From assembly GCA_022821545.1 (NCBI GenBank), contig JAJEDJ010000027.1, forward strand, positions 1 through 64,000: a stretch of DNA of 64,000 bases, in the 5' to 3' direction. A program made the translations under genes and the position numbers. Below, in pieces: positions 11,301 to 25,775 of the stretch. The notes beneath the pieces are model-generated. The model was not told the DNA's origin. It searched no databases and was given only the letters and a program-made list of their open reading frames with translations. Each line of letters opens with the position of its first letter. Within the stretch, counting starts at the first letter, position 1. The stretch is from Caldilineaceae bacterium (GTDB lineage: Bacteria; Chloroflexota; Anaerolineae; Caldilineales; Caldilineaceae).

Positions 11301-11352
11301 GAAAACCGATTCGAGCGCAATCGTGAGAGTTTGTGCTTCGACGCTTCTGTAG
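8341..11352 (+). CDS. Schlafen/AlbA_2-type protein with long helical-repeat C-terminus
   Basis: This 1003-aa protein starts with an AlbA_2 (Schlafen-like, putative DNA-binding or nuclease-related) domain at about residues 5-150. The family pattern is visible: EGETLDFKATNYNL, then FAKDLASLANTPRDGDAYLILGVKE, and a final YFRRGSQNAVAS. The remaining 850 residues are almost entirely alpha-helical, with TPR-like repeats at about 190-560 and HEAT-like repeats from about 560 to the end (for example RRAAFLALESVGDFAPPEVA and VRSVAVRAAVTQSKLDE). GGAGA lies five bases before the ATG. It is divergent from a type I restriction operon and lies in a defence island. A role in phage sensing or nucleic-acid attack is inference, and I recognise no named system with this architecture. 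Confidence 0.78.
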   Translation: MTENIDVVSLLKRPEGETLDFKATNYNLSDSKSKRSFAKDLASLANTPRDGDAYLILGVKEQGDGSYKPLGINKPVDDADLQSVAESLLTPCPRFQHQVIRHGGVLLELITIPIGRSPVAPKRTLDNGFTEGTIYFRRGSQNAVASMDKVRHIVEWFQGQISLAEFNEQTTFLHKNLDADALLLGPVQALGLTSDVEEAAQSLSSGDLANAAAGYARVAEKLRKRFPGHADRFEELHATTLKAAGKPDESHDLLMKIAIRRLFERPEPRLSPSVRRALEELYDEVDEVRRARGGALIFFGICHENPWTLQKLVECFDNLDSSDEYAPFIAVLLAEAALAINDFQTVLDRRESLQKAGTRGDTSIELRVCAALGDAGADDVWLNLIKKAEAFRLSAPEGTYVCLRGARWCALKGQMDKAESLYRLAMKLGSEAGLDLDVENALWSLNIIYALDFPAADFFETHDLALSIEGSHSYVKANSRTPLHSFQYTAIGKLPDARLWTQYWLLESIRSGCLRDEREAHANLARIFDQANEPLLALKHAVLGGSQDLVKELALKVSEWPEFLANAVGSDAPWVRRAAFLALESVGDFAPPEVARELVSGLLCRLRIDSGDEQEVPILLNALGAIILEATDDDLEQLIPILEQAAEHEPDKYRLTDPGVMAIAARLYRFRPTFRQQAASILGEMAVGAHTGKWAPTLEACGDDKRDLIEAFERVAERENLDPTRPLSDLGHLTASTRTLWSQRMQSVTERPSGERSEHAFGTRSGIPVAFLQEQDTADVLRYVEKLVAIGTAENETVITRTAALGAAAQAIDVLTDEGKGQIFGRVRPLVEQPVRISEVDRYFASSQHPLSRNRINFGSATNVQETAGWLLGRAATSPGECFFMEKVAMEWIGSDEPELQQTGASILTLPNFSSCKIQCVELVKHKNPLVRSVAVRAAVTQSKLDETAFEQLASDPDRRVRIEVAQALQPVRSKAPDLYERIRARLKTDSSAIVRVCASTLL

Positions 11353-11673
11353 CGATGAAACATGCGCTCATAAGGTTGTAGCCGGCCGGCTGCCGTGAAT
11401 CGCTACCTGGGCCCGTGTCCCTGCTGTCGCCTTGAGGCGGCTCCTGGAGCAGGCATCAGCGCGGCGTGGCTACGTCCTGCGCCACACTAGGTGCCTCGTG
11501 TTTGGGGTTGCGCGCGGTGGTGGGATACGATCAAGGCATGCGCTACAAAGGGTCTTAATTGGTATTGGTGGGAGATTACGGAACGCGCAACGAAGACGAG
11601 GTGTTTTCATGGGAAGATGGGAGAGGAAGAGCCGGAGGGCAAGAAAGCAGCGAAGAAACGCTTCGACGATGAA
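11353..11673. other. intergenic stretch, no gene recognised
   Basis: No recognisable protein is encoded between the AlbA-type gene and the insertion-sequence end. A few short frames are open but lack family resemblance or ribosome-binding sites. Confidence 0.4.
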
Positions 11674-11830
11674 TGAAGTGGGCCCCAAAAACTGGACCGC
11701 AAGCTAAGGTTTATAGTGGAGCAATTCACCAAGCCTATGGAGGGGCAGAACGATGGTCAAGAAACGGCGGCGACACACGGCGGCCTTCAAGTTCCGGGTT
11801 GCGCTGGAAGCGCTTGAAGGCAGGAAGATC
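11674..11830 (+). mobile_element. 5' remnant of an IS3-family insertion sequence
   Basis: The segment begins with TGAAGTGGGCCCCAAAAACT, resembling IS3-family terminal repeats. About 80 bases later an ATG (11753) opens the N-terminus of an IS3 OrfA, MVKKRRRHTAAFKFRVALEA, the typical start of the helix-turn-helix transposase subunit. After about 25 codons the resemblance stops and the sequence joins the body of a DUF2442 gene on the other strand. OrfB and the right end are missing, so this is a one-ended, immobile fragment. Confidence 0.7.
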
Positions 11831-11947
11831 GGAATATGGAATGAGACCCTTTGCACCGTCGGCGAAGCTGAGTTCGATTCCGTGTTTCAAGAGGCTGGCG
11901 ACCGTCATCATGCGATTGGCGTTTTTGACGAGAACGGCGTCAATCAT
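11813..11947 (-). pseudogene. DUF2442 gene truncated by the IS3 remnant
   Basis: From an ATG at 11947 the minus strand encodes MIDAVLVKNANRMMTVAS followed by IELSFADGAKGLIPYSDLPAF, a recognisable DUF2442 core. After about 45 codons the frame enters insertion-sequence DNA and becomes meaningless until a stop at 11735. It is a second DUF2442 copy in the window, not closely similar to the one in the hsd operon. Upstream is a 51-codon gene rather than a DUF4160 gene. Confidence 0.55.
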
Positions 11948-11982
11948 CAGTTCCCCTGATTGCGCTGTCGTTAGCCATCCGA

Positions 11983-12138
11983 CTACTCTTTCTTTACGGA
12001 CATCAGAAATTCACGGTGTGTCAATTCCGCTCTGTCAATCGCTTGGATCGCGTCGCTGAACTGGTGATCCAAACGCTTGCAGACAATCTCCGCGCGCCGC
12101 TTATCGGCGTCCGTACAGAACAGTTCAAGTTTACTCAT
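11983..12138 (-). CDS. 51-aa hypothetical protein
   Basis: This short frame opens with MSKLELFCTDADKRRAEIVC and is followed by a predominantly helical, charged remainder ending MSVKKE. An AAAGG lies about ten bases before the ATG, and the composition looks like a real small soluble protein. It ends 35 bases before the truncated DUF2442 gene in the same direction, so the two may have formed a small operon before the insertion. I do not recognise the family; a small partner or antitoxin-like role is speculative. Confidence 0.5.
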   Translation of the reverse strand: MSKLELFCTDADKRRAEIVCKRLDHQFSDAIQAIDRAELTHREFLMSVKKE

Positions 12139-12264
12139 CTTTAGCGCCTTTCCATGCTGGTGATTCGTTGTTGCCGACCTTCTATTCTACCAGCTTGGTT
12201 AAGCGCTCACTTACTCCGAATTCAGGTTAAGCAGGTAGTTCCCTTTTTCCCCGACTAGCCTCGC

Positions 12265-12885
12265 TTATCCTTTCGGATCTTCCTGCGTCGGCGCAGTGAG
12301 CGTTGCCGGAGCTTTTGCCGTTAAAGAGACTTCTAGCTTTACCGAGGCGCGCACCTCTATTGCCTCCCGAGTTCGAGCCAGCTCCGCTGCCAACAGTTCC
12401 TCGTCGGGCAAGGCAGTTCGGTACTCAGCAGCAAGAACTTCGTTCGCCAATCCCTCTAGTGCATACCGCGCCAGCGCTTCATTCTTCTCCGAGCAGAGAA
12501 TCAGTCCAACCGGCGGGTTTTCCCCCTCCCTGCCCCGATTCTCCCGGGCATAGTTCAGATAGAAGTTCATCTGTCCCGCGTCCGCGTGGGAAAAGCTCCC
12601 GATCTTCAAATCGATAACTGATTTGCCGGTTAAGCTGACGAACTGACCGCCCTCCTCGCAATGCCTCTTTTTCATAGAATTCACGCGCATGCACGTTCCT
12701 TACCGATAGCAACCGCACGTAGGCAGACCATGGCAAAGGGAAGGCAGTGAGAAGCTCTCTAAAGCGCACTTCGATCGAATTGCCGTTAGATTTGCCAGAC
12801 ACTGTCTGGCAAATCTTGTCTGAAGGGTAGCTTATGTAGAAGAGACGCATGTTATGAAGATTCTGACGGGAAAACCCGCGTCCAT
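12265..12885 (-). pseudogene. YhcG/DUF1016 nuclease gene with internal deletion and frameshift
   Basis: Two out-of-frame parts of one YhcG protein remain. The N-terminal part has GRGFSRQNLHNMRLFY, then FPLPWSAYVRLLSVRN and SVRQLNRQI. The C-terminal part has VIDLKIGSFSHADAGQMNFY, NPPVGLILCSEKNEALARYAL and AAEYRTALPDEELLAAEL. The junction is near 12620, where about 150 residues of the PD-(D/E)XK nuclease core have been deleted and the frame shifts. YhcG proteins are predicted nucleases frequent in defence islands and close to type I restriction genes. This copy cannot be functional. Confidence 0.75.
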
Positions 12886-12951
12886 TTGCACTGCCGTGCG
12901 CAATGTTCCAGCAGTCCCTGGAATGCCGCCCGGCCCGCCTGTGCTGCAAAG

Positions 12952-13626
12952 TTATTTCCCAAGGTTCTCCAATTTACCAAGCCACTCTGCAAAATGAGGG
13001 CATGCCGAGCGCAGCGTCGGCAGCCCGATCTGTCCGGCCACGATAGGTCCAACAGAATTCTTCCAGGAATTATAGTTTAAGAGTTCCTGGTTGATTCGTT
13101 TCGACGGTGGGTTATCGTCGTTGACAAGCTCAGGAGACTGAAACTGCGAAGCCATGGCCACCAGATTCGATATTCCTTCAACGCAGTCGTCATACTGAGA
13201 CTCAAATTTTTGCGGATCGGAGAGCAAGAGTGCCTCGAATTCGTACAATTGTATATAGGGAAAAAAACGCGAATCACCGATGTCCTCTGCCAAGGCATCT
13301 TCCAATGTCTGCACGCGCCGATAGGGGTCGTTGTGCGAAGCGGCTACGGCGTAGCCGGGGAAATCATTGGGTAGCTGGTAGAGATCGAACATTGTGGTGA
13401 AGCGGACGTCCATGTCACTGTGCTGGCTAAGCAGGAGACGTATGTCTCTTTCTGGCTTGGTATAGTTGCCAATGCCACCACGGTGGGTGAAGTTGGGCGA
13501 TTCCCTTGTAGTAACCACCAAGACATGAACGTCGAGAGAAAAGCGGGCCAGATGCGGTTTCAGAGTATGATTGACAAAGGTTGCTTCTGTCTGTCCTTCG
13601 GCTATGATGTGCAACGTCACATCCAT
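12952..13626 (-). CDS. DUF4276 (TOPRIM-like) protein, partner of an AAA ATPase
   Basis: The start MDVTLHII at 13626 shares one base with the stop of the upstream ATPase gene (TGATG), which decides against the in-frame ATG 33 bases upstream. The 224-aa product matches DUF4276: IIAEGQTEATFVNHTLKPHL near the N-terminus (the EGxTE element resembles the acidic motif of TOPRIM-type nucleases such as OLD and RloB), a central FPYIQLYEFEALLLSDP block, and a C-terminal helical part. Two-gene modules of an AAA ATPase followed by DUF4276 are found in prokaryotic defence islands. The nuclease assignment is inferred from family resemblance. Confidence 0.8.
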   Translation of the reverse strand: MDVTLHIIAEGQTEATFVNHTLKPHLARFSLDVHVLVVTTRESPNFTHRGGIGNYTKPERDIRLLLSQHSDMDVRFTTMFDLYQLPNDFPGYAVAASHNDPYRRVQTLEDALAEDIGDSRFFPYIQLYEFEALLLSDPQKFESQYDDCVEGISNLVAMASQFQSPELVNDDNPPSKRINQELLNYNSWKNSVGPIVAGQIGLPTLRSACPHFAEWLGKLENLGK

Positions 13627-14732
13627 CAGGGGCGTCCCCCGATTACGTTCTTTTCCCACAGTTCAGAAAGGGAATACTCTTTGAGCCATTCATCTAGCGC
13701 CTCGCTACTCTCCTGGCGTCGGAAGACCGACTCACGGCCTTCGCGCTCGACAACGACGATGTCGCCCAGATCGAAACGATCGACGAAAGCCGTCGATTGG
13801 GTGGCGACAATAACCTGTACCTTTTGAGAGACAGCGCGAATCAACCCGCCTATCACATCGATGGCTGCGGGGTGGAGCCCCAGTTCCGGTTCGTCTAGGA
13901 TAAGAATATCCGGCAACATCTCTTCCGGTTGCAAGAGCAGGGTGACAAGGGCAATGGCGCGCAACATTCCGTCCGAGGCCTGTGAAACGTCAAAAATCAC
14001 GTCGCTGTTGCTTTCGCGCCAAGCGAGTATCAGCCTTCCGCTTTCGGATATCAGTTCAAAATCAAGAAAAAATGGCAGGAACAGTCGTATGTGATCGACG
14101 ATGCTTTGGTAGCGACGTCTTTCCTCTCTCTTCAGGTTAAACAGGAAAGGAGCGATATTAGCTCCATCCTCTCTCAAAGAAAAGTTGTCGATTGCATCCC
14201 ATTTGGTGCGAATATTCGCTGTCGCTGACGTATTATGAAACTGGTAAACGACTATCTTTTGAAGAAGATCAATGATGTCGTTCACTCTATAGTCTTCAGA
14301 TAATTGGGAAAGGAGTTGCGGCGCGTGATGACCGGTTCCCAATGAATGCCAGGGCACGGCTTCGCCCCCAACTCCACGATAACGCTCTTCGGAAAAAATC
14401 AAAGTGTCGCTGGCCGCGAAGGTTAAGAGAAACTCGTACTCATTTTCTCCTGAGCCGCTACGTATTGTGAGTTGAGCTTCAATCTTATGAGTGACGGCCG
14501 GCCCATCGAGCAGGAGCCTGCTCGCGCCCCCTTGTTGGGCAACATAGGCTTGAAAAAAGAAGGGGTCGATCAGCATTTTGTTCAGCATGCTAAAGAAAGA
14601 GATGAAATTGGACTTGCCAACTCCGTTGGGCCCAATGAGCACGGTCAGAGAACCGGGCTGGAAACCGTCCAGCTCGCGAATCGTCTTGAACCCTTTGAGG
14701 CTGATGCTTTCAAGCCTGCCTCTCATACGCAA
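13626..14732 (-). CDS. AAA15-type (SMC/OLD-like) ATPase
   Basis: This 368-aa ABC/SMC-type ATPase has Walker A GPNGVGKS at residues 34-41, the signature-like SDGMLR at 253-258 and Walker B LILDEPE at 277-283, followed by a switch region (IVATQSTAFVD). It opens with the typical RxxxLKGFKTI motif. These ATPases act as sensors or motors together with a linked nuclease. The next gene, DUF4276, overlaps its stop, so the two form one module. The architecture resembles RloAB or AbiL-type pairs, but subfamily assignment needs a profile search. The gene looks intact. Confidence 0.86.
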   Translation of the reverse strand: MRMRGRLESISLKGFKTIRELDGFQPGSLTVLIGPNGVGKSNFISFFSMLNKMLIDPFFFQAYVAQQGGASRLLLDGPAVTHKIEAQLTIRSGSGENEYEFLLTFAASDTLIFSEERYRGVGGEAVPWHSLGTGHHAPQLLSQLSEDYRVNDIIDLLQKIVVYQFHNTSATANIRTKWDAIDNFSLREDGANIAPFLFNLKREERRRYQSIVDHIRLFLPFFLDFELISESGRLILAWRESNSDVIFDVSQASDGMLRAIALVTLLLQPEEMLPDILILDEPELGLHPAAIDVIGGLIRAVSQKVQVIVATQSTAFVDRFDLGDIVVVEREGRESVFRRQESSEALDEWLKEYSLSELWEKNVIGGRP

Positions 14733-14803
14733 TTTGGCCCCTGCTTCCTCATGCCGTGCTCACTCACCGGCAACTCTCTTCCATGCATTCTCCATAGTAT
14801 ACC

Positions 14804-15080
14804 TTACGCTTGCCGGTGCTCCATCCTGATCTGTTGAGCTATCGCGTGCATATCCAGCTTGCCCGTGACCATGTGGGAAATCAGGCGAGCCCGGTATTCC
14901 CACATGAGTTCGACCTGACAGCGGGTGTTGGCGATGGCGGCGGTGACTTTGTCGAGATGAGTGGCGATGACGGACTGTTCCGGAAGGGATGGGACGGACA
15001 ATCGCGCGGGTTTGATTGCTTCGTGCGTGAGGCCAAAACGAGTGACACCGTTAGCAGTTACCCGAACACTTACGAACAAC
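14804..15080 (-). pseudogene. 3' relic of an hsdS gene
   Basis: The minus strand encodes an HsdS C-terminus: NGVTRFGLTHEAIKPARLSV, then PSLPEQSVIATHLDKVTAAI and EYRARLISHMVTGKLDMHAI. The conserved LPEQ, helix and VTGKLD elements are clear. It covers about one conserved region and the end of a second recognition domain, and the rest is missing. The upstream part has been replaced by the TIR gene, whose end overlaps the open frame. Its sequence differs from the other hsdS relic, so it comes from another restriction system. Confidence 0.75.
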
Positions 15081-15089
15081 GCACTGCAT

Positions 15090-15875
15090 TTACGACTCGT
15101 GAAGGTCATCCTTGACTACATCAGCGATTTCAGTTGCGATCTGATCGATCGTGAATTGTGATGTGCTTCGTGCCAGTTTGTCGGCGAGCGTGGGGCTGTG
15201 AGCTATAATTTCGCTTCTGGTTATATTATGCCAAAGTGGAAGTATCACTTGCTTACCTGTTCCCGCCTTTGTTACGAGCCCGTCCAATTCATACTGAGGC
15301 CATTCCTTCGCAAAGAACGAGGGTGAAATGATGACTACGCCGAATCTGCTGCTGGCAACACCAGTATCAATTTTTCGCCGCAGACTGTCCCCAATCCTGA
15401 GTTCAAATTCGTCGTACCATACCCGCAGCCCTTCGGCATCAAGAGCTATAGCAAGCGGGCGGGCCACTTCCTCTTTGTCCTCAGTGGCATGTGAGATAAA
15501 CACGTCAAAGTAGTCATCTGAATTTATCAAATCCGACGCTGCATGAACAGGTTGCACGAGGGAAGATAGTGGCCCTGGGTTGTATTCAGGTAGCGGCGAC
15601 AAAGTTTCATTAGGGATAACGCGAACAGAGGATCTGGTTGTACCTCTTAATCCTTGCATATCCACAACAACGTACCAAGTGCCCGAATGTGGAATTGGAA
15701 TTCGTGTAGGGGATCTTTTGACCAAGCCGCCATAGTACCTATGCTTACGCCCGGACCGATAATCCTGGTAATTCATGCTGTCGAGTAACCTCACGTTGGC
15801 TGCATTTCCTGACAACGTTACTTCAACCTCATCGCCGCGCTGTCGGTGGCCAAGTTGGTAGTAATTGTATTTCAT
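15090..15875 (-). CDS. DUF1883-TIR domain protein, probable NADase-type defence effector
   Basis: This 261-aa protein has two domains. Residues 1-95 are DUF1883 (MKYNYYQLGHRQRGDEVEVT start, IPIPHSGTWYVVVDMQGL strand). Residues 121-255 are a TIR domain with DVFISHA at 124-130, a box-2-like VWYDEFELRIGDSL segment, and the candidate catalytic glutamate E196 in SPSFFAKEWPQYELDGL. Bacterial TIR domains with this glutamate degrade NAD+ and serve as abortive-infection effectors. What DUF1883 senses is not known to me. It is flanked by an hsdS relic and an AAA/DUF4276 pair, consistent with a defence island. No partner gene for a Thoeris- or CBASS-like system is adjacent, so it may act alone. Confidence 0.85.
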   Translation of the reverse strand: MKYNYYQLGHRQRGDEVEVTLSGNAANVRLLDSMNYQDYRSGRKHRYYGGLVKRSPTRIPIPHSGTWYVVVDMQGLRGTTRSSVRVIPNETLSPLPEYNPGPLSSLVQPVHAASDLINSDDYFDVFISHATEDKEEVARPLAIALDAEGLRVWYDEFELRIGDSLRRKIDTGVASSRFGVVIISPSFFAKEWPQYELDGLVTKAGTGKQVILPLWHNITRSEIIAHSPTLADKLARSTSQFTIDQIATEIADVVKDDLHES

Positions 15876-16152
15876 ATCAGCCGACTCCCATCATAGCTCG
15901 ACGGCACCCGGCCCCGGCGCGAGCAGAGCGGCGCAGCGTTCTCATCAGTTGCCTCCAGGTGGGACATTTTGCCCGCGGACTACCGTACACCATTGCGACA
16001 TCGTTGACAAGAGCAGCCACTCCAAACACCCAACCTTTTCCCAAACCCAGGAGAGCTGTGGAGCGTCGGGAGATTTTTTGTCTGGTCGGCAAGGTGGTAC
16101 AGTCAACAGGAGTTGTTTGGAAGCGAGAAAGCAAATTGACGGGGAACCGGTG

Positions 16153-16181
16153 TTGACACCGGCGCCGGCTGGCGCTATACT
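16153..16181 (+). promoter_or_regulatory. sigma-70-type promoter of the importer operon
   Basis: TTGACA (16153-16158) and TATACT (16176-16181) are separated by exactly 17 bases, 160 bases before the binding-protein start. The same arrangement occurs at the zur gene. Confidence 0.8.
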
Positions 16182-16187
16182 GTGCCT

Positions 16188-16207
16188 TGTTGCGAATTTT
16201 CGCAACA
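16188..16207. promoter_or_regulatory. Zur-type operator (copy 1)
   Basis: TGTTGCGAA and TTCGCAACA form a perfect 9-bp dyad around two bases, starting six bases after the -10 box, so bound protein would block transcription initiation. It matches the dyad before the Fur-family gene at 18 of 20 positions. AT-centred dyads of this size are typical of Fur-family operators. Assignment to Zur is inferred from the linked regulator and zinc genes. Confidence 0.75.
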
Positions 16208-16340
16208 GTAAAAATTATCATTTACTACAATCATTTCCCACAATGCGACGGAGGGCATTGCAGCGACTGCCGCAGCTCTGCCGGCTCCTGAGGCCAATTG
16301 TGGGGGCACACACCGCCAGTCTGACGAAAGGGACCCGCAG

Positions 16341-17957
16341 ATGCTTCACTCGCTTCGAATTTTGTTATCGGTTCTCACGCTGTTGTTTCTCCTGGCCGCT
16401 TGCACCGCAGCCGCGCCCGGAACAACTTCCGCCGGCGTCTCGGCAGCCCAGGCCGCGCCAGATGGTCAGGCTGCAACGGAGCGGCCCACGCTGACGGCGG
16501 GCGTCATCTGGCTGGACAGCCCCCTGGATCCGGTGGAGGGCGGCTACGTCTCCACCCAATCGGCATTGTCGGAGACCTTGTTCCGACTCTCAGGAACGAC
16601 CCTGAGTCCCGAACCGTGGCTGGCGACGGAAGCCACTCACGTAGCCCCCTTTGTCTGGAGGATCGGAATCCGGGAGGGCGTCAAGTTCCACAACGGGAAC
16701 GTGATGGATGCGGAAGCGGTGAAGGCTTCCCTGGAGCGGGCTATCCGATTGTCGCCGGCGGCGGCCGATACACTGTCCATTGACACGATAACGGTCGAGG
16801 ACGGGCAAACCATCACTATCAAGACGACGGTAGAGCAGCCCACCCTGCCGGGCCTGTTGATCCTGCCGGCCCTCGCCATCACGGACGCGGCGGCGGCGGA
16901 CGCAGCCGGAGAGGGCAATTTCATCGCTGCCGGCGCCCTTACCGGCCCGTACATCCCCACCGAGTACGCGCCAAAGGAACGTCTTAACAGCGTAGCCAAC
17001 GACGACTACTGGGGCGGGAAGCCTCCGCTGGCCGGCATCGAGCACGTCGCCATTCCCGACACGAACAGCCGGGAGCTGGCCCTGCAAGCCGGGGACATCG
17101 ACGTTGCCATCAACGTATCACCAGAAGGCGCCCTGGCGATCAACGCCCACCAAGGGACACATACCGAGACCTCCGGCATCGGCACCTCGCTGGTGCTGTG
17201 GTGGGTGAATTTCGAGCGCGGCACCCTGGCCGATCCGCTGGTGCGCCGGGCGGTGGCCCACGCCATTGACCGGGAGAGCATCGCCGGTCTGGTCGCTCCT
17301 CCGGGGTCCGGGTCCTTCGCTGAGCTCCTGCTCCCGGAAGCCCTGGTGGCGTGTCCCGGCGTGAACGCGCCGGGTTACGATCCTGACGCTGCGCGCGATT
17401 TGCTGGCGCAGGCCGGCTACGCGGACAGCGACGGCGACGGAGTCCTGGACAAGGAGGGTCAGCCGCTGGAAATTGTTATCGGCGGTTACCCCGAGCGGTT
17501 CCAGCTGCCCATAATGGCCGAGGCCGCCCAGGCGATGCTCGCTGATGTGGGCATCAAGGTCGAGGTGCTCATAACAGAATGGTCGGTGGTCAAGGAGCCT
17601 GCATGGGATCTCTTCGGCTGGTACAACACTGTCGTGCAAGGCGGGGGAGACCCGGTGTTCAACATCAGCAAGTTCGCCGGGTTGAAGGGGGACGCGAGCG
17701 GCAGCGGGACGAATAATTATGGGCACTACGACGCTTCCCGCCTGGTGGACATCGTCGCCCCCTCCACCTCCGTGTCCGACCTGGAGGGTCGAAAGGAGAT
17801 AGCCTGCGAGGCCCTGGCGGTGGTCACGGAAGATGCCGCATTCCTGCCGGTGGCGCATGTGAATATGGTGTACGGCGTCAGTGACCGGGTCACCGATTTC
17901 GAGGCCCACCCAACCTCCCACTATTTTTTCAACCACCGAGTTGGACTGAGCGAGTAA
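16341..17957 (+). CDS. ABC importer substrate-binding lipoprotein, nickel/oligopeptide (SBP_bac_5) family
   Basis: The 538-aa precursor has a signal peptide ending in the lipobox LLAAC (C21). That N-terminus is nearly identical to the zinc-binding protein gene downstream (MLHSLRIL...SVLTLLFLLAAC). The mature part is a family 5 binding protein: WRIGIREGVKFHNGN, then VRRAVAHAIDRESIAG and a late LFGWYNTVVQGGGDP. Members bind peptides, nickel chelates or opine metallophores. Two permease genes follow. With a Zur-type operator at its promoter, import of a zinc-chelating compound is a reasonable inference. Nickel or peptide uptake cannot be excluded. A DSDGDGVLD calcium-loop-like insert is present. 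Confidence 0.85.
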   Translation: MLHSLRILLSVLTLLFLLAACTAAAPGTTSAGVSAAQAAPDGQAATERPTLTAGVIWLDSPLDPVEGGYVSTQSALSETLFRLSGTTLSPEPWLATEATHVAPFVWRIGIREGVKFHNGNVMDAEAVKASLERAIRLSPAAADTLSIDTITVEDGQTITIKTTVEQPTLPGLLILPALAITDAAAADAAGEGNFIAAGALTGPYIPTEYAPKERLNSVANDDYWGGKPPLAGIEHVAIPDTNSRELALQAGDIDVAINVSPEGALAINAHQGTHTETSGIGTSLVLWWVNFERGTLADPLVRRAVAHAIDRESIAGLVAPPGSGSFAELLLPEALVACPGVNAPGYDPDAARDLLAQAGYADSDGDGVLDKEGQPLEIVIGGYPERFQLPIMAEAAQAMLADVGIKVEVLITEWSVVKEPAWDLFGWYNTVVQGGGDPVFNISKFAGLKGDASGSGTNNYGHYDASRLVDIVAPSTSVSDLEGRKEIACEALAVVTEDAAFLPVAHVNMVYGVSDRVTDFEAHPTSHYFFNHRVGLSE

Positions 17958-17993
17958 GCGAGGTAGTGGGATAACGGGTACAGGTTCCCCAGC

Positions 17994-18941
17994 ATGGGAG
18001 CATACCTGGTACGAAGGTTAGCCACGCTGCCGCTGCTTCTCCTGGGCATCTCGGCGGCCAGTTTCACGCTGCTGAATCTGGCGCCGGGAGACCCGGCCGA
18101 GATTGTACTGCGTCAGCGCAACCCGGCCCAGCTGCCCAGTCAGGCGGAGGTGGAAGCCATGCGCACTGAGTTGGGCCTGGGCGCCCCCCTGCCGGTGCAA
18201 TACACTCGCTGGGTTGCGGGTGCGCTGGCGGGGGATCTGGGCAAGTCATACGTAACGGAACGGCCGGTGGTCGCCCAGCTGGCCCGCCGCACCGTTCCGA
18301 CGGCGCTGCTCACCGCAGCCGCCCTGGCCCTGGCGCTGCTGGTCGCGGTCCCTACGGGCATACTGTCGGCACGGCGGCAGGGCAGCCCCGCAGATGCCGT
18401 CGCCCGCCTGGCGGCGCTGGTGGGCGCGGCCGCTCCATCCTACGCCCTGGCCTATGGACTGATCATCCTGTTCGCGGTGAAACTGTCGTGGCTACCGGCC
18501 CTGGGCTATGGTTCGGCGGAGCAGGTGATCCTCCCGGCCATCGCGCTCTCTCTGGCGCCGATGGCTCAACTGATGCGGCTGATCCGCGCCAGTATGCTGG
18601 AAACGCTGGGGCAGGACTATGTTCGAACGGCGCGGGCCAAGGGGTTATCGGAAGAGACTGTCGCGATGGGGCACGCTCTGCGCAACGCGCTGCTGCCGGT
18701 TATCGGGGCTATGGGGGTGCATTTGGGTTACCTGCTCAGCGGCGCCGTCATAGTGGAGACGATTTTCACCTGGCCCGGTTTGGGTCAGTTGGTGGTGGGG
18801 GCGGCGCTGACCCGGGACTACCCGGTGGTGCAGGGGTTCGTGACCTACATCGCGGTGGTGGTCCTGTTGGTCAACCTGGCCGCGGACGTTGCCTTGCGTG
18901 TTGCCGACCCGCGCCTGCGTTTCGGACGGGAGGAGAGGTAG
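17994..18941 (+). CDS. ABC importer permease, NikB/DppB type
   Basis: This 315-aa inner-membrane protein has the binding-protein-dependent transport fold with about six membrane segments. It opens with an N-terminal helix (LVRRLATLPLLLLGISAASF) and the GDPAE motif typical of DppB/NikB proteins. The cytoplasmic coupling motif is visible as VRTARAKGLSEETVAMGHAL around residues 207-226, followed by RNALLPVIG. It begins 36 bases after the binding-protein gene and is followed by a second permease after six bases. No ATPase genes accompany the operon, so energy must come from ATPases encoded elsewhere. Confidence 0.9.
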   Translation: MGAYLVRRLATLPLLLLGISAASFTLLNLAPGDPAEIVLRQRNPAQLPSQAEVEAMRTELGLGAPLPVQYTRWVAGALAGDLGKSYVTERPVVAQLARRTVPTALLTAAALALALLVAVPTGILSARRQGSPADAVARLAALVGAAAPSYALAYGLIILFAVKLSWLPALGYGSAEQVILPAIALSLAPMAQLMRLIRASMLETLGQDYVRTARAKGLSEETVAMGHALRNALLPVIGAMGVHLGYLLSGAVIVETIFTWPGLGQLVVGAALTRDYPVVQGFVTYIAVVVLLVNLAADVALRVADPRLRFGREER

Positions 18942-18947
18942 CCGCGG

Positions 18948-19958
18948 ATGAGGGCTCGTTGCGATGCGAGAAACAGGGGAGAACGGGTTTCCGTTCCGGC
19001 CATCGGCGGGAGGGCGCGTCAGTGGCGGAGGTGGACGGCGTCGTTGCGGGAACCCGGAACCACGTTGGGTTTGTTCCTGGTGGTGTCGCTGCTGCTGGGA
19101 GGACTGCTGGCGCCCTGGCTCCCGATAGATGATCCCACGGCGATCAACTTGCCCGCACGGTTGCTCTCGCCGTCCATGACACACCCTTTGGGCACCGATC
19201 ACCTGGGGCGGGACACGTTCAGCCGGGTCGTTCATGGGGGGCGCATGACGCTGCTGGCCGCCATCACCACGCTGGCCCTGAGCATGATCATCGCGCTGAC
19301 GGTGGGCATCGTGTCCGGATACCATGGCGGCTGGCCGGACACGGCGTTGATGGGTATCGTGGACCTGCTTCTGGCGTTTCCATCGCTGATTCTGGCGCTG
19401 GCCGTAGCGGGAGCGCTGGGGCCCGGACTGTTGAACGTGCTGCTGGCAGCCGGCGCGGTCTGGTGGGTGGGGCACGCTCGCATCATCCGCGCTGTCACCA
19501 TGGGGGCGCGACAGATGGAGTACGTGATGTCGGCACGCGTAGCCGGAGCCGGCAACCTGCGCATAATACTGCGACACATTGCCCCCAACATCATCGGCCC
19601 CATCGTCGTGATCGCTTCCCTGGACGTGGGCTGGATCATCCTGGGCATTGCCGGCCTGAATTTCCTGGGACTCGGAGCGCAACCGCCCACGCCGGAATGG
19701 GGCGCTATGCTCAACGACGCCCGCCCGCACTTGCAAACCGCGCCGCGCCTGTTGCTGATACCCGGCGCGGCGATCTTTCTGGCAGTGCTTGGATTCAATT
19801 TGCTCGGCGACGGTCTGAGAGACCTGCTTGATCCGCGGACGATGCACAGGCCGGAGCAGGTGATTAGGCCGGAGCAGGTGATCAACAGGCTGAGAGAGCC
19901 TGAGGCGGCGATAGCCGAGGGCAGCACAGCGATACGAGCCGAGCCAGGTAGAGGATGA
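18948..19958 (+). CDS. ABC importer permease, NikC/DppC type
   Basis: This 336-aa second permease has the DppC/NikC hallmark HPLGTDHLGRDTFSRVVHG near residues 82-100, several hydrophobic segments, and the coupling motif VMSARVAGAGNLRIILRHIA near 200. The N-terminal 40 residues are a basic cytoplasmic extension. The C-terminal tail contains a short duplication (RPEQVIRPEQVI). It ends 56 bases before the -35 box of the zur promoter. The usual NikD/NikE-type ATPases that would follow are absent. Confidence 0.9.
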   Translation: MRARCDARNRGERVSVPAIGGRARQWRRWTASLREPGTTLGLFLVVSLLLGGLLAPWLPIDDPTAINLPARLLSPSMTHPLGTDHLGRDTFSRVVHGGRMTLLAAITTLALSMIIALTVGIVSGYHGGWPDTALMGIVDLLLAFPSLILALAVAGALGPGLLNVLLAAGAVWWVGHARIIRAVTMGARQMEYVMSARVAGAGNLRIILRHIAPNIIGPIVVIASLDVGWIILGIAGLNFLGLGAQPPTPEWGAMLNDARPHLQTAPRLLLIPGAAIFLAVLGFNLLGDGLRDLLDPRTMHRPEQVIRPEQVINRLREPEAAIAEGSTAIRAEPGRG

Positions 19959-20013
19959 GAAGGCGCTGACCGAGATGATGGTGTTCAGAGGCGTGCGCGG
20001 ACGGGAAACGGTA

Positions 20014-20042
20014 TTGACACCGCGGTCAGTTGGCGCTATACT
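20014..20042 (+). promoter_or_regulatory. promoter of the zur-znuACB operon
   Basis: TTGACA (20014-20019) and TATACT (20037-20042) are 17 bases apart. Transcription should start about 30 bases before the regulator ATG. Confidence 0.8.
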
Positions 20043-20048
20043 GTAGTT

Positions 20049-20068
20049 TGTTGTAAATTTTTGCAACA
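20049..20068. promoter_or_regulatory. Zur-type operator (copy 2)
   Basis: TGTTGTAAA and TTTGCAACA form a dyad with one mismatch, directly after the -10 box and 12 bases before the zur ATG. It implies autoregulation of zur and zinc-dependent control of the downstream importer genes. Confidence 0.75.
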
Positions 20069-20080
20069 AGAAAAGTTATC

Positions 20081-20518
20081 ATGTCCCACAATACCGCAGA
20101 GATCAATCGGCAGTTACGCAAATCCGGCTACCGGGTAACACCCCAACGCCAACTCATCCTGGACGCCGTCTGTCAACTCGGTGACCATGTCACGCCCGAG
20201 GCCGTGTACGACCATGTACACCGCATCGCTCCCACTCTGAGCCGGGCGACAGTCTACCGGGTCCTGCACTTTCTGACAGAACAGCAGATCCTGGCGATGG
20301 TGCATATAGCCGACGGCCGGCTTGCCTACGAGATGGCCGGCCCCGAGCCGCACCACCACCTCGTCTGCCGCACCTGCGACAGCTTGCTCGAGCTGCCGCA
20401 CAGCGTCTTGCTGTCCTTTCGCCTGGCGATGGAATCCCAATACGATTTTGAGATCGACGTAAGTCATCTCTCATTCTTTGGGCATTGCACCGACTGCCGC
20501 AGTTCTGCCGGCGCCTGA
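20081..20518 (+). CDS. zur: Fur-family metalloregulator, probably Zur
   Basis: This 145-aa protein has the Fur layout: a winged helix at about residues 10-80 (YRVTPQRQLILDAV, then SRATVYRVLHFL) and a dimerisation/metal domain with HHH at 91-93, C96-x2-C99 and C136-x2-C139 as the structural zinc site. It represses uptake genes when metal is plentiful. The zinc importer genes follow directly, so Zur is the most likely identity rather than Fur, Nur or PerR. Its own promoter and the importer promoter at 16153 carry the same dyad. Its 3' end and the following leader are the source of the duplicated block upstream. Confidence 0.88.
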   Translation: MSHNTAEINRQLRKSGYRVTPQRQLILDAVCQLGDHVTPEAVYDHVHRIAPTLSRATVYRVLHFLTEQQILAMVHIADGRLAYEMAGPEPHHHLVCRTCDSLLELPHSVLLSFRLAMESQYDFEIDVSHLSFFGHCTDCRSSAGA

Positions 20519-20650
20519 CGCCAATTGTGGGGGCACACGCCACCAGCCTGACGAAAGGGTACCCGCAGATGCTTCACTCACTTCGAATTCTGACATCGGT
20601 TCTCACGCTGTTGTTTCTCCTGGCAGCTTGCGCCCCAGTCGCGCCGACAA
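20479..20650 (+). repeat. parent copy of the duplicated leader and signal-peptide block
   Basis: This interval covers the last zur codons, the intergenic leader and the first 27 codons of the zinc-binding protein gene. It matches about 16253-16425 with only scattered substitutions and a one-base difference just before the start codon. Confidence 0.8.
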
Positions 20651-22929
20651 GTGTCGAGCCAGTCCAGGAGGCGTCACCCTCCGGCACGCCGATCCAGGTG
20701 GTGGCAACCACCACCTTTGTGGCTGATTGGGCTCGGGTGGTAGGTGGAAGCAGGGTCGAGGTCTTCGGCCTGCTGCCGGTGGGCGGCGATCCGCACACTT
20801 TTCTGCCAGGCGCTCGCGACGTTGCCAGGGTAGCTGACGCGGATCTTGTGTTGACTGTCGGTCTCGGCCTGGAGGCCGATTGGCTGGAGGATCTCTTGCA
20901 CAATGCCAGTGCAGACGAGTCCAAGATAGTCACGCTTGGTGACGGAGTCGATCCGATCGAGTTCGGCATGGCCGATATGCATGACGATCACGGGGATGAG
21001 CACGAGGATGAGCACGAGGATGAGCATGAGGATGAGCACGGCCATGACGAGATGATCATGGGGCGTTTGCTCGTTGCGGATGCGGTAGAAGCGCACCTCT
21101 CCGTCATCGATCTGTCGACCGGTGACGTTGACAGCGGAATCTTCGAGGTCGCCGCGCCCAGCGCGACCGTGCATCCCAGCCCCACTCACCGCTACGCCAT
21201 CGTCCTCGCCCGCGGGCCTGAGGACGGCGACGACCGAATCCATATCTTCGACAGCGGCGTCTTCCTCGTCGAGCACGGCGATCACTACGACCTCGTCACC
21301 CGGCCCGTCTCCCGTCATGCGTTGGAGATCGCTGACGAGCAGCCGGTCCATTATGTCAACAGCTATGGCTGGACCTCGATCTTCGCAGACATCAGCGGTC
21401 ACGCCATCCTGATCAACGAGGCGGACATGGCGAACTCACGCGGCGACTATGAGCCGATCGTGCTTGAGGCCGGACCGCAGCATGGCGCCGCGCTTGTCAT
21501 CTCGGACGAGCACATCGTCGTTACCACGAAGAATCCGGACTACCCCGAGAATTCCAACGACAGCCTGCCTGTCGGCGTGGAAGTTCGCGACTTCAGTGAT
21601 CAGGTCGTCTACGATGCCAGCAATCGCTCATGCCCGGGCATGCACGGTGAGTCCCACAATGAGCATGGCGTCGCCTTGGGATGCACCGGCGGCGTGCTCT
21701 TCCTCCACACTCACGATGGCGAGTACGAGTACGAGTTCATCGCCAATCCGCCGGAGATGCGCGAAGGTTCTCGGATCGGGTCGATCTACGGTCACCACCA
21801 TGTCGAGCATTTCTTCGGCAAGGCCTCCTACTTCGACGGTCAGGGCTGGGCCGACGATGGCATTTGGCTGATCGACGTGGACCACAGCGAAATGCGCCAG
21901 GTGTTCAGCGAGCCGAGTGTTTCCACGAAGTTCTCCAGCGATGGCGAGCTGCTCTATGTGCTTGGCGCTGACGGCGTGCTGCACGCGCTGGACGCGCATG
22001 ACGGCGAATTGCTCGAGACCATGGAGTTGGTCGGGCCTGGTGACGCCGGTCGTCCCGCGTTCATCGTTGTTGGCGAGTGGCTCTACGTCTCCGACCCCAA
22101 CAGCGGCCACGTCCTGGCCGTCCACCTTGAAGAGATGGAGATCGAGGAGGAGTGGGAAGTCGGCGGCGCGCCGTCGAGCCTAGCGTTCATCGGAGTTGCC
22201 GACTCGGGCGGCGCGCCCGATGAAGGCCATGACGAACACGAAGAGGACGAGCACGGCCATGACGAGGACGAAGACGAGCATGGCCATGACGACGATGATC
22301 ATGAGGATGAAGACGAGCACGGCCATGACGAAGATGAGCATGAGGACGAAGACGAGCACGAGGGGCACGACGATCACGGCCATGAAGGGCACGCACACGG
22401 TCCTCTGGATCCCCACTTCTGGTTCGACCCGATCCGGGTGAAGATCGCGGTCAACGAGATAGCCGCCCAGTTCTCGGCGATAGACCCCGACAACGCGAGC
22501 GTCTACCTCGAGAACGCCTCAGCGTATGGGGAGCAGCTCGACGAGCTTCACGCCTGGATCCTGGAGCAGGTCAGTACTGTGGCGCCGGAGCGCAGACTGC
22601 TGGTTACATCACACGACAGCTTCTCCTACCTGGCAGCGCTTTATGGGTTTGAGATCGTTGGGCTGGTTATCCCGTCGTTGGCGACGCACGTGGAGCCGTC
22701 TGCGGAGCACATTGCGGGCGTGGTCGATGTGGTCCGGGAGCACGATATACCAGCAGTGTTTGGTGAGACGACAGTCAGCGAGAGGCTGGCGCAGACCATA
22801 GCAACGGAGACCGGCGCGCAGCTGGTCCGGCTCTTCTCGGGTTCCCTTGGGCCGGAGGGCAGCGGCGGTGACACCTACCTTGGCATGGTGCGGACCAATG
22901 TGGAACGCATCGTCGGGGCACTGAAATGA
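20569..22929 (+). CDS. znuA: zinc-binding lipoprotein (ZnuA/AztC type) with nested AztD-like beta-propeller
   Basis: The start chosen is MLHSLRIL at 20569, giving 786 aa with lipobox LLAAC (C21); the open frame extends upstream into the zur end but lacks a signal there. Residues 40-135 are the N-lobe of a cluster A-I zinc-binding protein, with ligand H76 in GGDPH. A His/Asp/Glu-rich loop at 137-160 then leads into about 380 residues (165-545) resembling the AztD zinc metallochaperone: a beta-propeller with the CPGMHGE...GC pair C355/C372 and many strand-turn blades. A second, 60-residue His-rich loop (550-611) returns to the binding protein, with ligands H616 (DPHFW), H682 (SHDSF) and D768. 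The propeller is thus inserted where ZnuA has its flexible His-loop. The stop overlaps znuC (ATGA). The function inferred is periplasm-side zinc capture with built-in metal transfer. Confidence 0.85.
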   Translation: MLHSLRILTSVLTLLFLLAACAPVAPTSVEPVQEASPSGTPIQVVATTTFVADWARVVGGSRVEVFGLLPVGGDPHTFLPGARDVARVADADLVLTVGLGLEADWLEDLLHNASADESKIVTLGDGVDPIEFGMADMHDDHGDEHEDEHEDEHEDEHGHDEMIMGRLLVADAVEAHLSVIDLSTGDVDSGIFEVAAPSATVHPSPTHRYAIVLARGPEDGDDRIHIFDSGVFLVEHGDHYDLVTRPVSRHALEIADEQPVHYVNSYGWTSIFADISGHAILINEADMANSRGDYEPIVLEAGPQHGAALVISDEHIVVTTKNPDYPENSNDSLPVGVEVRDFSDQVVYDASNRSCPGMHGESHNEHGVALGCTGGVLFLHTHDGEYEYEFIANPPEMREGSRIGSIYGHHHVEHFFGKASYFDGQGWADDGIWLIDVDHSEMRQVFSEPSVSTKFSSDGELLYVLGADGVLHALDAHDGELLETMELVGPGDAGRPAFIVVGEWLYVSDPNSGHVLAVHLEEMEIEEEWEVGGAPSSLAFIGVADSGGAPDEGHDEHEEDEHGHDEDEDEHGHDDDDHEDEDEHGHDEDEHEDEDEHEGHDDHGHEGHAHGPLDPHFWFDPIRVKIAVNEIAAQFSAIDPDNASVYLENASAYGEQLDELHAWILEQVSTVAPERRLLVTSHDSFSYLAALYGFEIVGLVIPSLATHVEPSAEHIAGVVDVVREHDIPAVFGETTVSERLAQTIATETGAQLVRLFSGSLGPEGSGGDTYLGMVRTNVERIVGALK
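20977..21048 (+). repeat. in-frame tandem repeat coding the first His/Glu-rich loop
   Basis: Twelve-base GATGAGCACGAG-type units repeat inside the zinc-protein gene and encode DEHE repeats. Such tracts can expand or contract by slippage without shifting the frame. Confidence 0.8.
22216..22401 (+). repeat. in-frame tandem repeat coding the second His/Asp/Glu-rich loop
   Basis: About 60 codons are nearly all His, Asp, Glu or Gly, built from GACGAGCACGGCCATGACGA-like units. The nucleotide similarity to the first loop suggests that both arose from one expanded loop split by the propeller. Confidence 0.8.
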
Positions 22930-23690
22930 ACCCAATTCCGGACGGCGGCGCGAGCATGTCGCTTCAGGACGTGACCGTAGAGTTCGACGGGCAGATGGCC
23001 CTGAGTAACGTTTCCTTCGATGTAGAAGCGGGGACTCTCATGGGCGTTGTAGGACCGAACGGAGCCGGCAAGAGCACGCTGTTCAATGCGATTGCCGGGC
23101 TCCTCCCGGTTCGCCGGGGGAAGGTGACCCTTCACCGTGTGGACCAGGGACGCGGGGCGTTGGCCTACGTGCCTCAGCGCGAGAGCGTCAACTGGCGGTT
23201 CCCTGTGACCGTCAAGGACGTTGCCATGATGGGCCGGTGCTGCCGACTGGGATGGTGCCGGCGACCCGGGAAGAGAGACCGCGAGCTTGTCGACGCGTGT
23301 CTATACCGTGTGGGTCTGTGGGACCATCGTTCTGCCCTGATGACGGAGCTTTCGGGCGGGCAGAGGCAGAGGGTATTCGTAGCCAGGGCGCTCACCCAGG
23401 AGGCAAGCGTGCTTCTTCTGGATGAGGCTTTCAGCGGCGTTGACGCGGGGGCCCAGGAGGGCCTCGTAGAGGTCCTCCAGACGGTGCGGAATGAAGGGCG
23501 CATTGTCCTGCTGGCGACCCACGACCTGACCAACCTGGCCGGTCGCTTCGACCAGGTACTGTGTCTGAACCGCCGCGTGTGCGCCTGCGGCCCTCCCGAC
23601 GAGGTGTTTACGTCCGAGGTCATGGAGCAGCTGTACGGCGCCCCCGGTGTGCGCCTCGCGATGGCCGGGGAGGGTAGCAAGAGTAGGTGA
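22926..23690 (+). CDS. znuC: zinc ABC importer ATPase
   Basis: This 254-aa ATPase has Walker A GPNGAGKST (43-51), a Q-loop in YVPQRESVNWRFPVTV, signature LSGGQRQR, Walker B VLLLDEAF and the switch histidine in LLATHD. The YVPQ...V-W-x-F-P-V-T-V segment is typical of the metal-type (ZnuC/MntB) ATPases. It overlaps the binding-protein stop (ATGA) and the permease start (GTGA), so the three genes are translated as a unit. It energises the adjacent permease; whether it also serves the ATPase-less importer upstream is unlikely because the families differ. Confidence 0.93.
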   Translation: MNPIPDGGASMSLQDVTVEFDGQMALSNVSFDVEAGTLMGVVGPNGAGKSTLFNAIAGLLPVRRGKVTLHRVDQGRGALAYVPQRESVNWRFPVTVKDVAMMGRCCRLGWCRRPGKRDRELVDACLYRVGLWDHRSALMTELSGGQRQRVFVARALTQEASVLLLDEAFSGVDAGAQEGLVEVLQTVRNEGRIVLLATHDLTNLAGRFDQVLCLNRRVCACGPPDEVFTSEVMEQLYGAPGVRLAMAGEGSKSR

Positions 23691-24505
23691 TAGAGTTCTT
23701 TGTCGCCCCACTCGAGTACGGCTTCATGGTGAGGGCCTTGATCGGCTCGGTGCTTGTGGGCGTGATGTGTCCCCTGGTTGGCGCGTACGTCGTCACCAGA
23801 AACCTCGCCTTCATGGGGGACGCTCTCGCCCACGCGGTGCTGCCGGGCATGGTGCTTGGGTTCATCATGGGCATCAACCCGGCCATAGCCGCCGTCCCAA
23901 CAGGCGTCACCGTTGCCGTACTGGTCAGGATTGTGAGCCGGCGTGCGGGTTTCAGCACCGATACTTCGATAGGCATCCTCTTTGCGGCCATGTTTGCGCT
24001 GGGACTTGCGATGCTGTCGCTTTCAACGACGATCAGGGTCGATATGGAAGACCTGCTCCTGGGGCAGATCCTGGCCATATCTCCGACCGACATCTATGTG
24101 TCCCTTGGGATAACGATACTGGTCATTCTGGGGCTATTCGGCCTACACCACTGGCTGCTGTTTGCGAGCTTTGACCCCGTGGGGTCGCAGGTTGTCGGCG
24201 CGCGCGCCAACATCGTCGATTATGTGCTGCTGGTTATGCTTGCCCTCGTGATCGTGATAGGAATTCAGGCGGCGGGCGTCATTCTGGTCATGGCGATGCT
24301 GGTGACACCTGCCGCCACGGCCTATCTGTTGGTGAGACGATTTGTCTCGATGATGGTGGTGGCCGCGGTTCTAGGGACCGCGGCCGCCGTGACCGGGCTT
24401 TACATCTCCTACCACTTCAATCTGCCCGCCGGTCCTGCCATGACCCTGGTCGCAAGCGGGATATTCGCGCTGGCAGTCTCATTCAGGCGAAGAGCACCGG
24501 CCTGA
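23687..24505 (+). CDS. znuB: zinc ABC importer permease
   Basis: This 272-aa membrane protein of the ABC-3 family has eight or nine hydrophobic segments. Family landmarks include GDALAHAVLPGMVLGF near residue 45 and a coupling helix in the middle. It starts with GTG overlapping the znuC stop. It forms the membrane channel of the zinc importer together with znuC and the propeller-containing binding protein. Confidence 0.93.
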   Translation: MIEFFVAPLEYGFMVRALIGSVLVGVMCPLVGAYVVTRNLAFMGDALAHAVLPGMVLGFIMGINPAIAAVPTGVTVAVLVRIVSRRAGFSTDTSIGILFAAMFALGLAMLSLSTTIRVDMEDLLLGQILAISPTDIYVSLGITILVILGLFGLHHWLLFASFDPVGSQVVGARANIVDYVLLVMLALVIVIGIQAAGVILVMAMLVTPAATAYLLVRRFVSMMVVAAVLGTAAAVTGLYISYHFNLPAGPAMTLVASGIFALAVSFRRRAPA

Positions 24506-24611: not shown

Positions 24612-25775
24612 ATGTTGAATGTGCCCGTTGATTGGGGAACGGTATGGTTAGGGGGCTTCTGTCCGGTGGAGGCGCTCGGCGGGTTGCCGGTGCGCGGCGC
24701 AGATTATGCCGCTCATCCACCGCTGGATGAGCGGCTGACCCTACCCGCTAACGCAGCTTCACATGTCGAGGCGACGCTTGAAACGGCAGAGGCGACATGG
24801 TCGGAACGCCTGGGCGGCGCGCGGGTTGTGCTGGTGCGCGATGCCTACCGCGCTCGCCGCTTAGTGCATCAGGCGGCGGGGATTCAGCCGGGCGAATGGG
24901 TCGGTGTGCCGGCGAATGCCAGCCATGACTTGGCAGAGTCGGTCAAGCACCACGGGGCGCTGCCGCGCTTTCTGGACTTTGACGCGCATCTACGGCTCGC
25001 GCCGTCCAGTACGCGCTTCACCTGGACGCAGGTTGTGCGCGGGTTGTGGCAGCCGCAGAACACAATGTGGCTCGACTGCGCTGACACGCTGCCTACGCCC
25101 GGCGCGGCAGAGCGCCCGGCGGTGACGCTGTACGGCTTACATCTGCCTGATGTTGATGACCGCCCCGGCGCGCTGCTGGTCTTCAGTGATGAGGCACTTT
25201 ATGCAGAGGTGAGAGCATTGCGTCAACCGGTTGACTGCCCGAACGCAGCGCAGGCACTGGCACAGTGTACACGTCTGCCCGAACTGGCAGAGCAGCAGGG
25301 CGCGAATCTGGCGGAGATGCGGCGCGGTCTGCGTGAAGCGGCCGGGCTGGTGACACACGAGCCGAACAGGCTGGCGCTGGCGACCGCGGTCGCGGTGCAG
25401 GTTCCGCCAGAGAGCGACGTCGCCACGTTTTACGCCTACGTTGAGCAGGAAAATACGCCCGTGCGCTGGCTGCCACAGATTCGGCCTTTGCATTATTCGG
25501 CGCTGGGCGCTGACGGCGCGTCCGATCACCGGGGAACGGCGACGAACCTCGCCCGCTGGATGTGCGTCCCGGTGGGGCCAGACTACACTTTTGAGGAGAT
25601 CAAACACGGTGTGCTGGGCATCGTCAAAGCGGCGGAATATCTCGGTGTGCGCTGGCGCACGAATCCCGCCTATGCCGCCGAGTACGCTTCCTTGATGGAT
25701 CGAACTTATGGCGCAGGGCATGATGCCTACCGTCCGTTGTTTGCGCTGGATGAAGCCATCGCTGCGGGAGATTAG
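24612..25775 (+). CDS. DegT/aminotransferase-fold protein lacking a PLP lysine
   Basis: This 387-aa protein resembles the DegT/DnrJ/EryC1 class of fold-type I proteins in its first half: GIQPGEWVGVPANASHDLAE, then GALPRFLDFDAHLRL, echo the cofactor-binding large domain. It contains only three lysines in total (in LAESVKHHG and, near the C-terminus, in FEEIKHGVLGIVKAAEYLG). None lies near the position of the catalytic Schiff-base lysine around the middle. It is therefore probably not a working PLP enzyme. It lies between the zinc importer and a COG0523 GTPase, so a role in metal handling is suggested by context only. GAGAGGAAAAAG precedes the start. Confidence 0.6.
   Translation: MLNVPVDWGTVWLGGFCPVEALGGLPVRGADYAAHPPLDERLTLPANAASHVEATLETAEATWSERLGGARVVLVRDAYRARRLVHQAAGIQPGEWVGVPANASHDLAESVKHHGALPRFLDFDAHLRLAPSSTRFTWTQVVRGLWQPQNTMWLDCADTLPTPGAAERPAVTLYGLHLPDVDDRPGALLVFSDEALYAEVRALRQPVDCPNAAQALAQCTRLPELAEQQGANLAEMRRGLREAAGLVTHEPNRLALATAVAVQVPPESDVATFYAYVEQENTPVRWLPQIRPLHYSALGADGASDHRGTATNLARWMCVPVGPDYTFEEIKHGVLGIVKAAEYLGVRWRTNPAYAAEYASLMDRTYGAGHDAYRPLFALDEAIAAGD

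Follow-up and report, generated by a model that had tools for sequence, protein, structure and literature searches.

Organization of the importer and znu genes

The window analysed here, a stretch of 64,000 nucleotides, belongs to contig C38 in the 4.87-Mb genome of a Caldilineaceae bacterium (G000). A solute-binding protein and two permeases are encoded in an importer operon that is followed, in order, by zur, znuA, znuC, znuB, a gene at 24612-25775, a CobW-type GTPase gene and a gene for a WD40 protein (Table 1). The gene between znuB and cobW encodes a conserved protein of 387 residues that was found in most relatives and in a second genus of the family; its best match was a marginal one to DegT/DnrJ aminotransferase-like proteins (E 3e-4). 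Upstream of the importer, the cluster at 8341-15875 looked defence-like from its translations: one large protein has a Schlafen-like start, another is TIR-like, and an AAA ATPase gene is accompanied by a small partner.

Table 1. Features of the importer and zur-znu loci, in coordinates of the window
Feature	Position	Strand	Basis
Upstream flank of importer leader, U type	16045..16140	+	84% identity to the flank of the G007 importer leader
Copy of zur promoter/operator	16142..16231	+	79% identity to 20003-20092, E 8e-17
Promoter, -35 TTGACA, 17-bp spacer, -10 TATACT	16153..16181	+	Scan, 11 of 12 consensus positions
Predicted Zur operator, palindrome TGTTGCGAA-TT-TTCGCAACA	16187..16208	+	No mismatches to pattern
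Remnant of zur 5' end, start codon lost (ATT), up to deletion junction	16220..16252	+	Leader alignments
Remnant of zur 3' end (old stop 16289-16291), leader, ribosome-binding region	16253..16340	+	Alignment
Importer signal peptide/lipobox segment, homologous to that of znuA	16341..16418	+	MLHSLRILLSVLTLLFLLAAC vs MLHSLRILTSVLTLLFLLAAC
Importer solute-binding protein, SBP_bac_5, NikA/Opp-like	16341..17957	+	PF00496, E 6.6e-63
NikB-like permease	17994..18941	+	NF045470, 341 bits (cut-off 350)
NikC-like permease	18948..19958	+	TIGR02790, 307.5 bits (cut-off 358)
zur promoter/operator, second leader	20003..20092	+	Alignment, promoter scan
zur (Fur family), intact	20081..20518	+	PF01475, E 2.9e-23
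zur 3' end, leader, znuA signal peptide	20480..20645	+	90% identity to 16253-16417
znuA with inserted AztD-like domain	20569..22929	+	PF01297, E 2.7e-74; NF038015 (AztD), E 1.3e-39
znuC and znuB	22926..24505	+	Profile matches

The importer proteins resembled NikA, NikB and NikC, and all three scored below the curated cut-offs for a NikABCDE system. The binding protein matched the Opp5A_nikA model (NF045468) with E 8e-71, yet fell under the model cut-off, while its similarity to the CntA model was weak (85 bits, cut-off 800). The nearest solved structure by sequence was a nickel-binding protein (3t66, E 2e-53). No nikD, nikE or other Opp-type ATPase gene was found in the window or in the importer loci of the relatives, and this search, in which a permease-ATPase fusion query was left out of account because it matches nikC, ruled out an importer locus with its own ATPase. 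Elsewhere in the genome there are 46 Opp-type ATPase domains. In znuA the AztD-like domain occupies residues 169-540, within the His-rich loop. The regulator gene was labelled zur from its znu context, because the family models gave only a Fur-family match; its score against the NCBIfam Zur model (E 1e-6) was under the cut-off and the models placed it closer to generic Fur.

A promoter and predicted operator common to both operons

The importer and zur-znuA leaders each carry a TTGACA-17-TATACT promoter, and these were the only two sigma-70-like sites in the 4.7 kb from 16000 to 20700. In both, a palindrome starts 5 bp after the -10 box, and that of the importer leader is perfect. When the whole 4.87-Mb genome was scanned with the operator pattern, allowing at most one mismatch, three loci were found, namely the leaders of the importer, of zur-znuA and of zur2, a second zur on contig C47. 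An operator-like site on contig C26 had two mismatches, and no recognised zinc gene was present among the ORFs read near it. The putative operator is common to the zur and znu promoters, as expected of a Zur regulon, and its occurrence ahead of the importer, which had been claimed in the original prediction, puts the importer and the znu operon under predicted common control by Zur.

The layout of the promoter was conserved in nearly all leader copies of the genus. Symmetry of the palindrome was kept at 8-9 of 10 positions in the copies that precede the importer in G000, G007 and G016, and both promoter layout and palindrome were still recognisable in importer and deleted copies while zur decayed.

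The importer leader as a copy of the zur-znuA leader

It had been proposed that 16141-16250 corresponds to the zur promoter and operator and 16253-16425 to the zur 3' end, znuA leader and signal peptide, the body of zur having been lost. Local alignment gave two blocks at these places (16142-16231 with 20003-20092, 79%, E 8.2e-17; 16253-16417 with 20480-20645, 90%, E 2.5e-61), the proposed coordinates being correct to a few bases, so that the similarity extends beyond the promoter core and lies far above chance. The offsets of the blocks are 3861 and 4227-4228, and therefore about 366 bp of zur are gone from the importer leader. The junction of the deletion lies between 16252 and 16253, where CAATGCGACGGA meets GGGCATTGC, and the first 80 nt beyond it are 91% identical to 20480-20559. 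The old zur start codon is now ATT, as predicted, and can be placed either at 16220-16222 or at 16233-16235, the latter in a multi-species alignment, because of a 13-nt near-repeat, ATCATTTACTACA/ATCATTTCCCACA. The 90% DNA identity runs through the signal-peptide region, and the importer binding protein does begin with the znuA signal sequence.

The two copied blocks were thus confirmed, although the pair is not unique, because the genome has a third copy of the leader with a full zur, zur2, between znuA2 and znuC2 on C47. The flank of the importer leader was 78% identical to that of zur2, and local alignment found no such flank upstream of 20003. The zur2 locus corresponds to 4059-7493 of L036 (contig C47), with zur2 at 94% amino acid identity. 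The gene znuA2b is not at the C47 locus of G000, though relatives have it there.

Origin of the importer

A search of 100 related genomes together with G000, the relatives being metagenome bins, found close copies of the importer in five genomes. Within the genus of the window these were G000, G007 and G016 only (93-95% identity for G007 and G016), in each of which the importer lies behind a local zur-znu leader; the others, G036 and G039, belong to another genus of the family (83-84% identity). A scan of 84,980 genomes gave 31 importer loci at 65-92% identity, and 27 of these came from Chloroflexota bins other than these Caldilineaceae, with Dehalococcoidia, SAR202 or Chloroflexi in their titles (L138, L139 and L142-L166, the donor set). 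Many of the donor bins are sponge-derived, going by their names.

The N-terminus was read in 26 of the 27 Chloroflexota loci, and in these 26 the importer had its own, different signal peptide and leader. At the DNA level, the donors aligned with G000 and G016 at 88-90% identity, beginning only 102-125 nt downstream of the ATG. In the binding-protein tree, the three members of the genus nested among Dehalococcoidia-type sequences, beside L138 and L139 (support 100/98). Judged from these comparisons, the mature part of the binding protein is of Dehalococcoidia/SAR202-type origin, and the importer, of a metal/peptide type, is foreign to the genus of the window and came from a distant bacterial class. 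Since the signal peptides of the donors differ, and that of the leader is native to znuA2b, the importer took over the leader and not the reverse, which is the direction that had been proposed.

The importer had also been described as unrelated, and this part of the original prediction was not supported. In many donors (L142, L158, L159, L162, L164 and others) cobW, wd40, zur or znuACB are found near the importer, so it probably took part in zinc physiology already before its capture and was not foreign to it.

Origin and spread of the leader

Each genome of the genus has 1-3 near copies of full-length zur. In the zur tree, the oldest branches all came from the C47-type locus (G004, G010 and G012, then G015, G011 and G009). 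In most species the gene after zur at this locus is znuA2b, whose signal peptide is of the same kind, for example MHHSLRTLLSLLTLLILLAACGPAAPGTT. The C47-type locus, with znuA2b 3' of zur, is therefore the likely ancestral site of the leader. The module of promoter, operator, zur, tail and signal peptide precedes at least four binding-protein genes: the AztD-containing znuA, a second znuA, znuA2b after a WD40 gene, and the importer. The signal peptide and linker of the G007 importer (LLAACAPAAPGTTSAGASA) resemble those of znuA in G009, G011 and G012.

Stages of zur decay

Three states of the zur remnant were found ahead of the importer. In G007 the importer lies behind a full-length zur in which the start ATG has become ATA and an Arg has been replaced by Trp just ahead of the ATVYR motif. 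The G000 copy has the deletion described above, and G016 has a different, double deletion that is common to its importer and znuA leaders. The ATG was lost in all importer and deleted zur copies (ATT, ATA, GTT, AAT or AAA) and was retained by the intact copies elsewhere. The full-length zur in G007 indicates that the deletion came after the capture; this copy and the different states of the remnant do not fit the single step envisaged originally.

The G000 junction, together with a derived base beside it, was also found before znuA in G001 (two copies), G002, G005, G006 and G014. The two G016 leaders share a deletion of their own, yet one tree placed G016 with the species of the first deletion type, which suggests that gene conversion or transfer between strains also acted.

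Filled and empty sites

Over the 5 kb that precede the importer leader of G007, identity to the corresponding stretch ahead of the zur-znuA leader of G008 and G013 was 95%, so the importer of the one and znuA of the others occupy the same site. At the informative positions, with few exceptions, the G013 leader was of the G007 importer type to about position 158 and of the G007 znuA type from about 161. Such a switch is the signature of a crossover, within the promoter, between two copies of the leader. An empty site in two sister species, with the crossover inside the leader, implies that gain or loss of the importer runs through leader recombination, which would have either removed the importer in G008/G013 or added it in G007.

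In G000 and G016 the importer directly adjoins znuA. The same adjacency is inferred for G007, where the genes lie on two contigs, C75 and C216, with ends overlapping by 16 bases. Another znu operon takes the place of the importer in G011, G012, G015 and apparently G009. G007, G016 and the G009/G011/G012/G015 group all have the end of a dispersed repeat, AGATGCGATTGCC, ahead of the second leader, a similarity that favours an old tandem arrangement. Short elements with inverted ends (GGGCAATCGCATCTAAAT ... AGATGCGATTGCC) were seen just 5' of the second leader in L114, L117, L122 and L126; fragments of them are scattered among genomes of the genus and resemble miniature mobile elements.

The 3' end of nikC in G000 (19850-19958) reads PEQVINRLREPEAA, apparently lengthening the protein, and a similar fragment is found at the same place in G007. 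We take this stretch to be a remnant of an IS3 orfA. Mobile elements at the joint suggest themselves as possible aids to the original fusion.

An apparent separate capture in a second genus

In G036 and G039 the importer is divergently oriented from a different znuACB, with a transposase-like remnant between them. The importer and ZnuA binding proteins of these genomes share a leader and signal peptide of about 160 nt (84%), unlike the leader in the genus of the window. The remaining two genomes of the second genus, G031 and G042, also have this leader, and a protein search found no close importer in them. A single clade for the two importer groups was rejected by the AU test on the binding protein (p 0.032) and not by the tests on the nikB and nikC trees (p 0.42 and 0.39). 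Rejection for the binding protein and not for the permeases points to an independent capture, and the second genus probably acquired the importer separately, behind another znuA leader. Palindromes resembling TATATTAATATA were seen in both divergent promoters in L140 (10001-11605 and 8216-8712) and L141.

Proposed mechanism and alternatives

The observations are most probably explained by capture of a leader, in which a foreign importer was fused in frame behind a copied unit of promoter, operator, zur, tail and signal peptide. The events would be as follows: 1) zur would have had its own operator-promoter on one side and, on the other, the leader and signal peptide of a gene for a zinc-binding protein, 2) this whole unit would have been copied within the genus, ahead of several binding-protein genes, 3) an importer consisting of NikA-like, NikB and NikC proteins, from Dehalococcoidia/SAR202-type Chloroflexota, would have been joined in frame downstream of one copy, whose promoter and signal peptide took the place of its own, 4) the operator would have been retained while the redundant zur decayed, first by loss of the start codon and then by deletion, and 5) because leader copies now stand on both sides of the importer as direct repeats, an exchange between them could excise it, leaving a single leader before znuA. 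Zinc-loaded Zur would bind the palindrome just 3' of the -10 box and repress the importer and the znu operon together, zinc starvation would derepress both, and the importer binding protein would be exported through the znuA-type signal peptide. The sequence itself shows the leader homology, its direction, the intermediates, the decay of zur and the crossover at the empty site; Zur binding, the zinc response, the substrate of the importer and the molecular route by which the fusion first arose are what we infer.

An alternative is that the likeness of the leaders was maintained or spread mainly by gene conversion between old leaders, in which the importer's own leader was overwritten from a zur-znu leader with no joining to a duplicate. 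The G000 tail matches that of its own znuA (90%) more closely than that of the G007 importer (86%), one deletion is common to both G016 leaders and the two zur copies of G011 are identical, all of which fit such an exchange. However, conversion needs prior similarity, and the leaders and signal peptides of donors and local genes show little in their DNA; moreover, converting a whole zur ahead of the importer, as in G007, is a larger step than joining. We regard this route as rather unlikely for the origin of the fusion.

Less likely still is a simple segmental duplication with simultaneous deletion, by which one event set the zur-znuA 5' region beside an unrelated local importer. The two blocks and the missing zur body would suggest it if the window were taken alone, but it is difficult to reconcile with the full-length zur in G007, the three remnant states, the flank and junction common to other species and an importer that is foreign and zinc-linked in its donors, and we consider it improbable. 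A chance or convergent likeness of lipoprotein signal peptides and promoters can be virtually dismissed, for although Chloroflexota lipoprotein signal peptides are alike at the protein level, the 90% DNA identity covers 166 nt, including about 88 nt 5' of the start codon (E 2.5e-61).

Beyond the captured leader itself, a broader and more tentative suggestion is that the zur leader might serve as a landing pad. Incoming binding-protein genes might have been joined repeatedly behind this portable leader, made up of an autoregulated repressor, its operator and an in-frame lipoprotein signal peptide, and so become secreted and zinc-controlled at once, with leader recombination swapping or removing importers and the capture in the second genus being separate.

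Relation to known systems

In bacteria, regulatory DNA can move and rewire genes, as in horizontal regulatory switching, noncoding DNA transfer and mobile promoters. The movement proposed here differs in being within a genome, tied to an autoregulated repressor and inclusive of signal-peptide coding sequence. In the long-term evolution experiment, citT reportedly came under the rnk promoter through tandem duplication, a case of promoter capture. The activation of transferred genes by tandem duplication has also been described, and promoter capture by a transferred gene has precedents, experimental ones among them (PMC11111574). The importer likewise gained an adjacent resident promoter: its promoter is homologous to that of another resident gene and its ancestral, different leader is known, two of the marks of promoter capture. 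In contrast to those cases, the captured piece also holds an operator, a repressor gene and an in-frame signal peptide, and the capture is a natural one, with intermediates and with the same importer apparently captured in a second genus. Inclusion of the operator and the signal peptide means that regulation and export were gained together. It is less usual that such a piece was reused before several importers with the stages preserved, and no equivalent of a portable repressor-operator-signal-peptide leader was found in the literature searched, which included few subscription papers.

How a host brings horizontally acquired genes under control has mostly been addressed by laboratory evolution or from single snapshots. 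Here one genus keeps the importer fused behind a full repressor gene, fused behind a decayed one, and absent from sites with a crossover in the leader. Other bacteria supply the donor form, and the second genus offers an apparent repeat. The host bacterium is sponge-associated, and its sequence documents the placing of a newcomer gene under existing control.

Among Zur regulons that include nickel/opine-type importers, the pseudopaline and staphylopine systems have a NikA/CntA-type importer associated with zinc acquisition (PMC5719457, PMC5666155). Such an importer tied to zinc is the shared feature, whereas the present one has weak similarity to CntA and no ATPase gene in its operon. In the AztABCD zinc importers AztD is a separate protein, a metallochaperone (PMC6689063), whereas the AztD-like domain here sits inside the binding protein ZnuA. 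A similar AztD-like insertion was seen in the ZnuA of the Dehalococcoidia-type relatives L162, L164 and L142.
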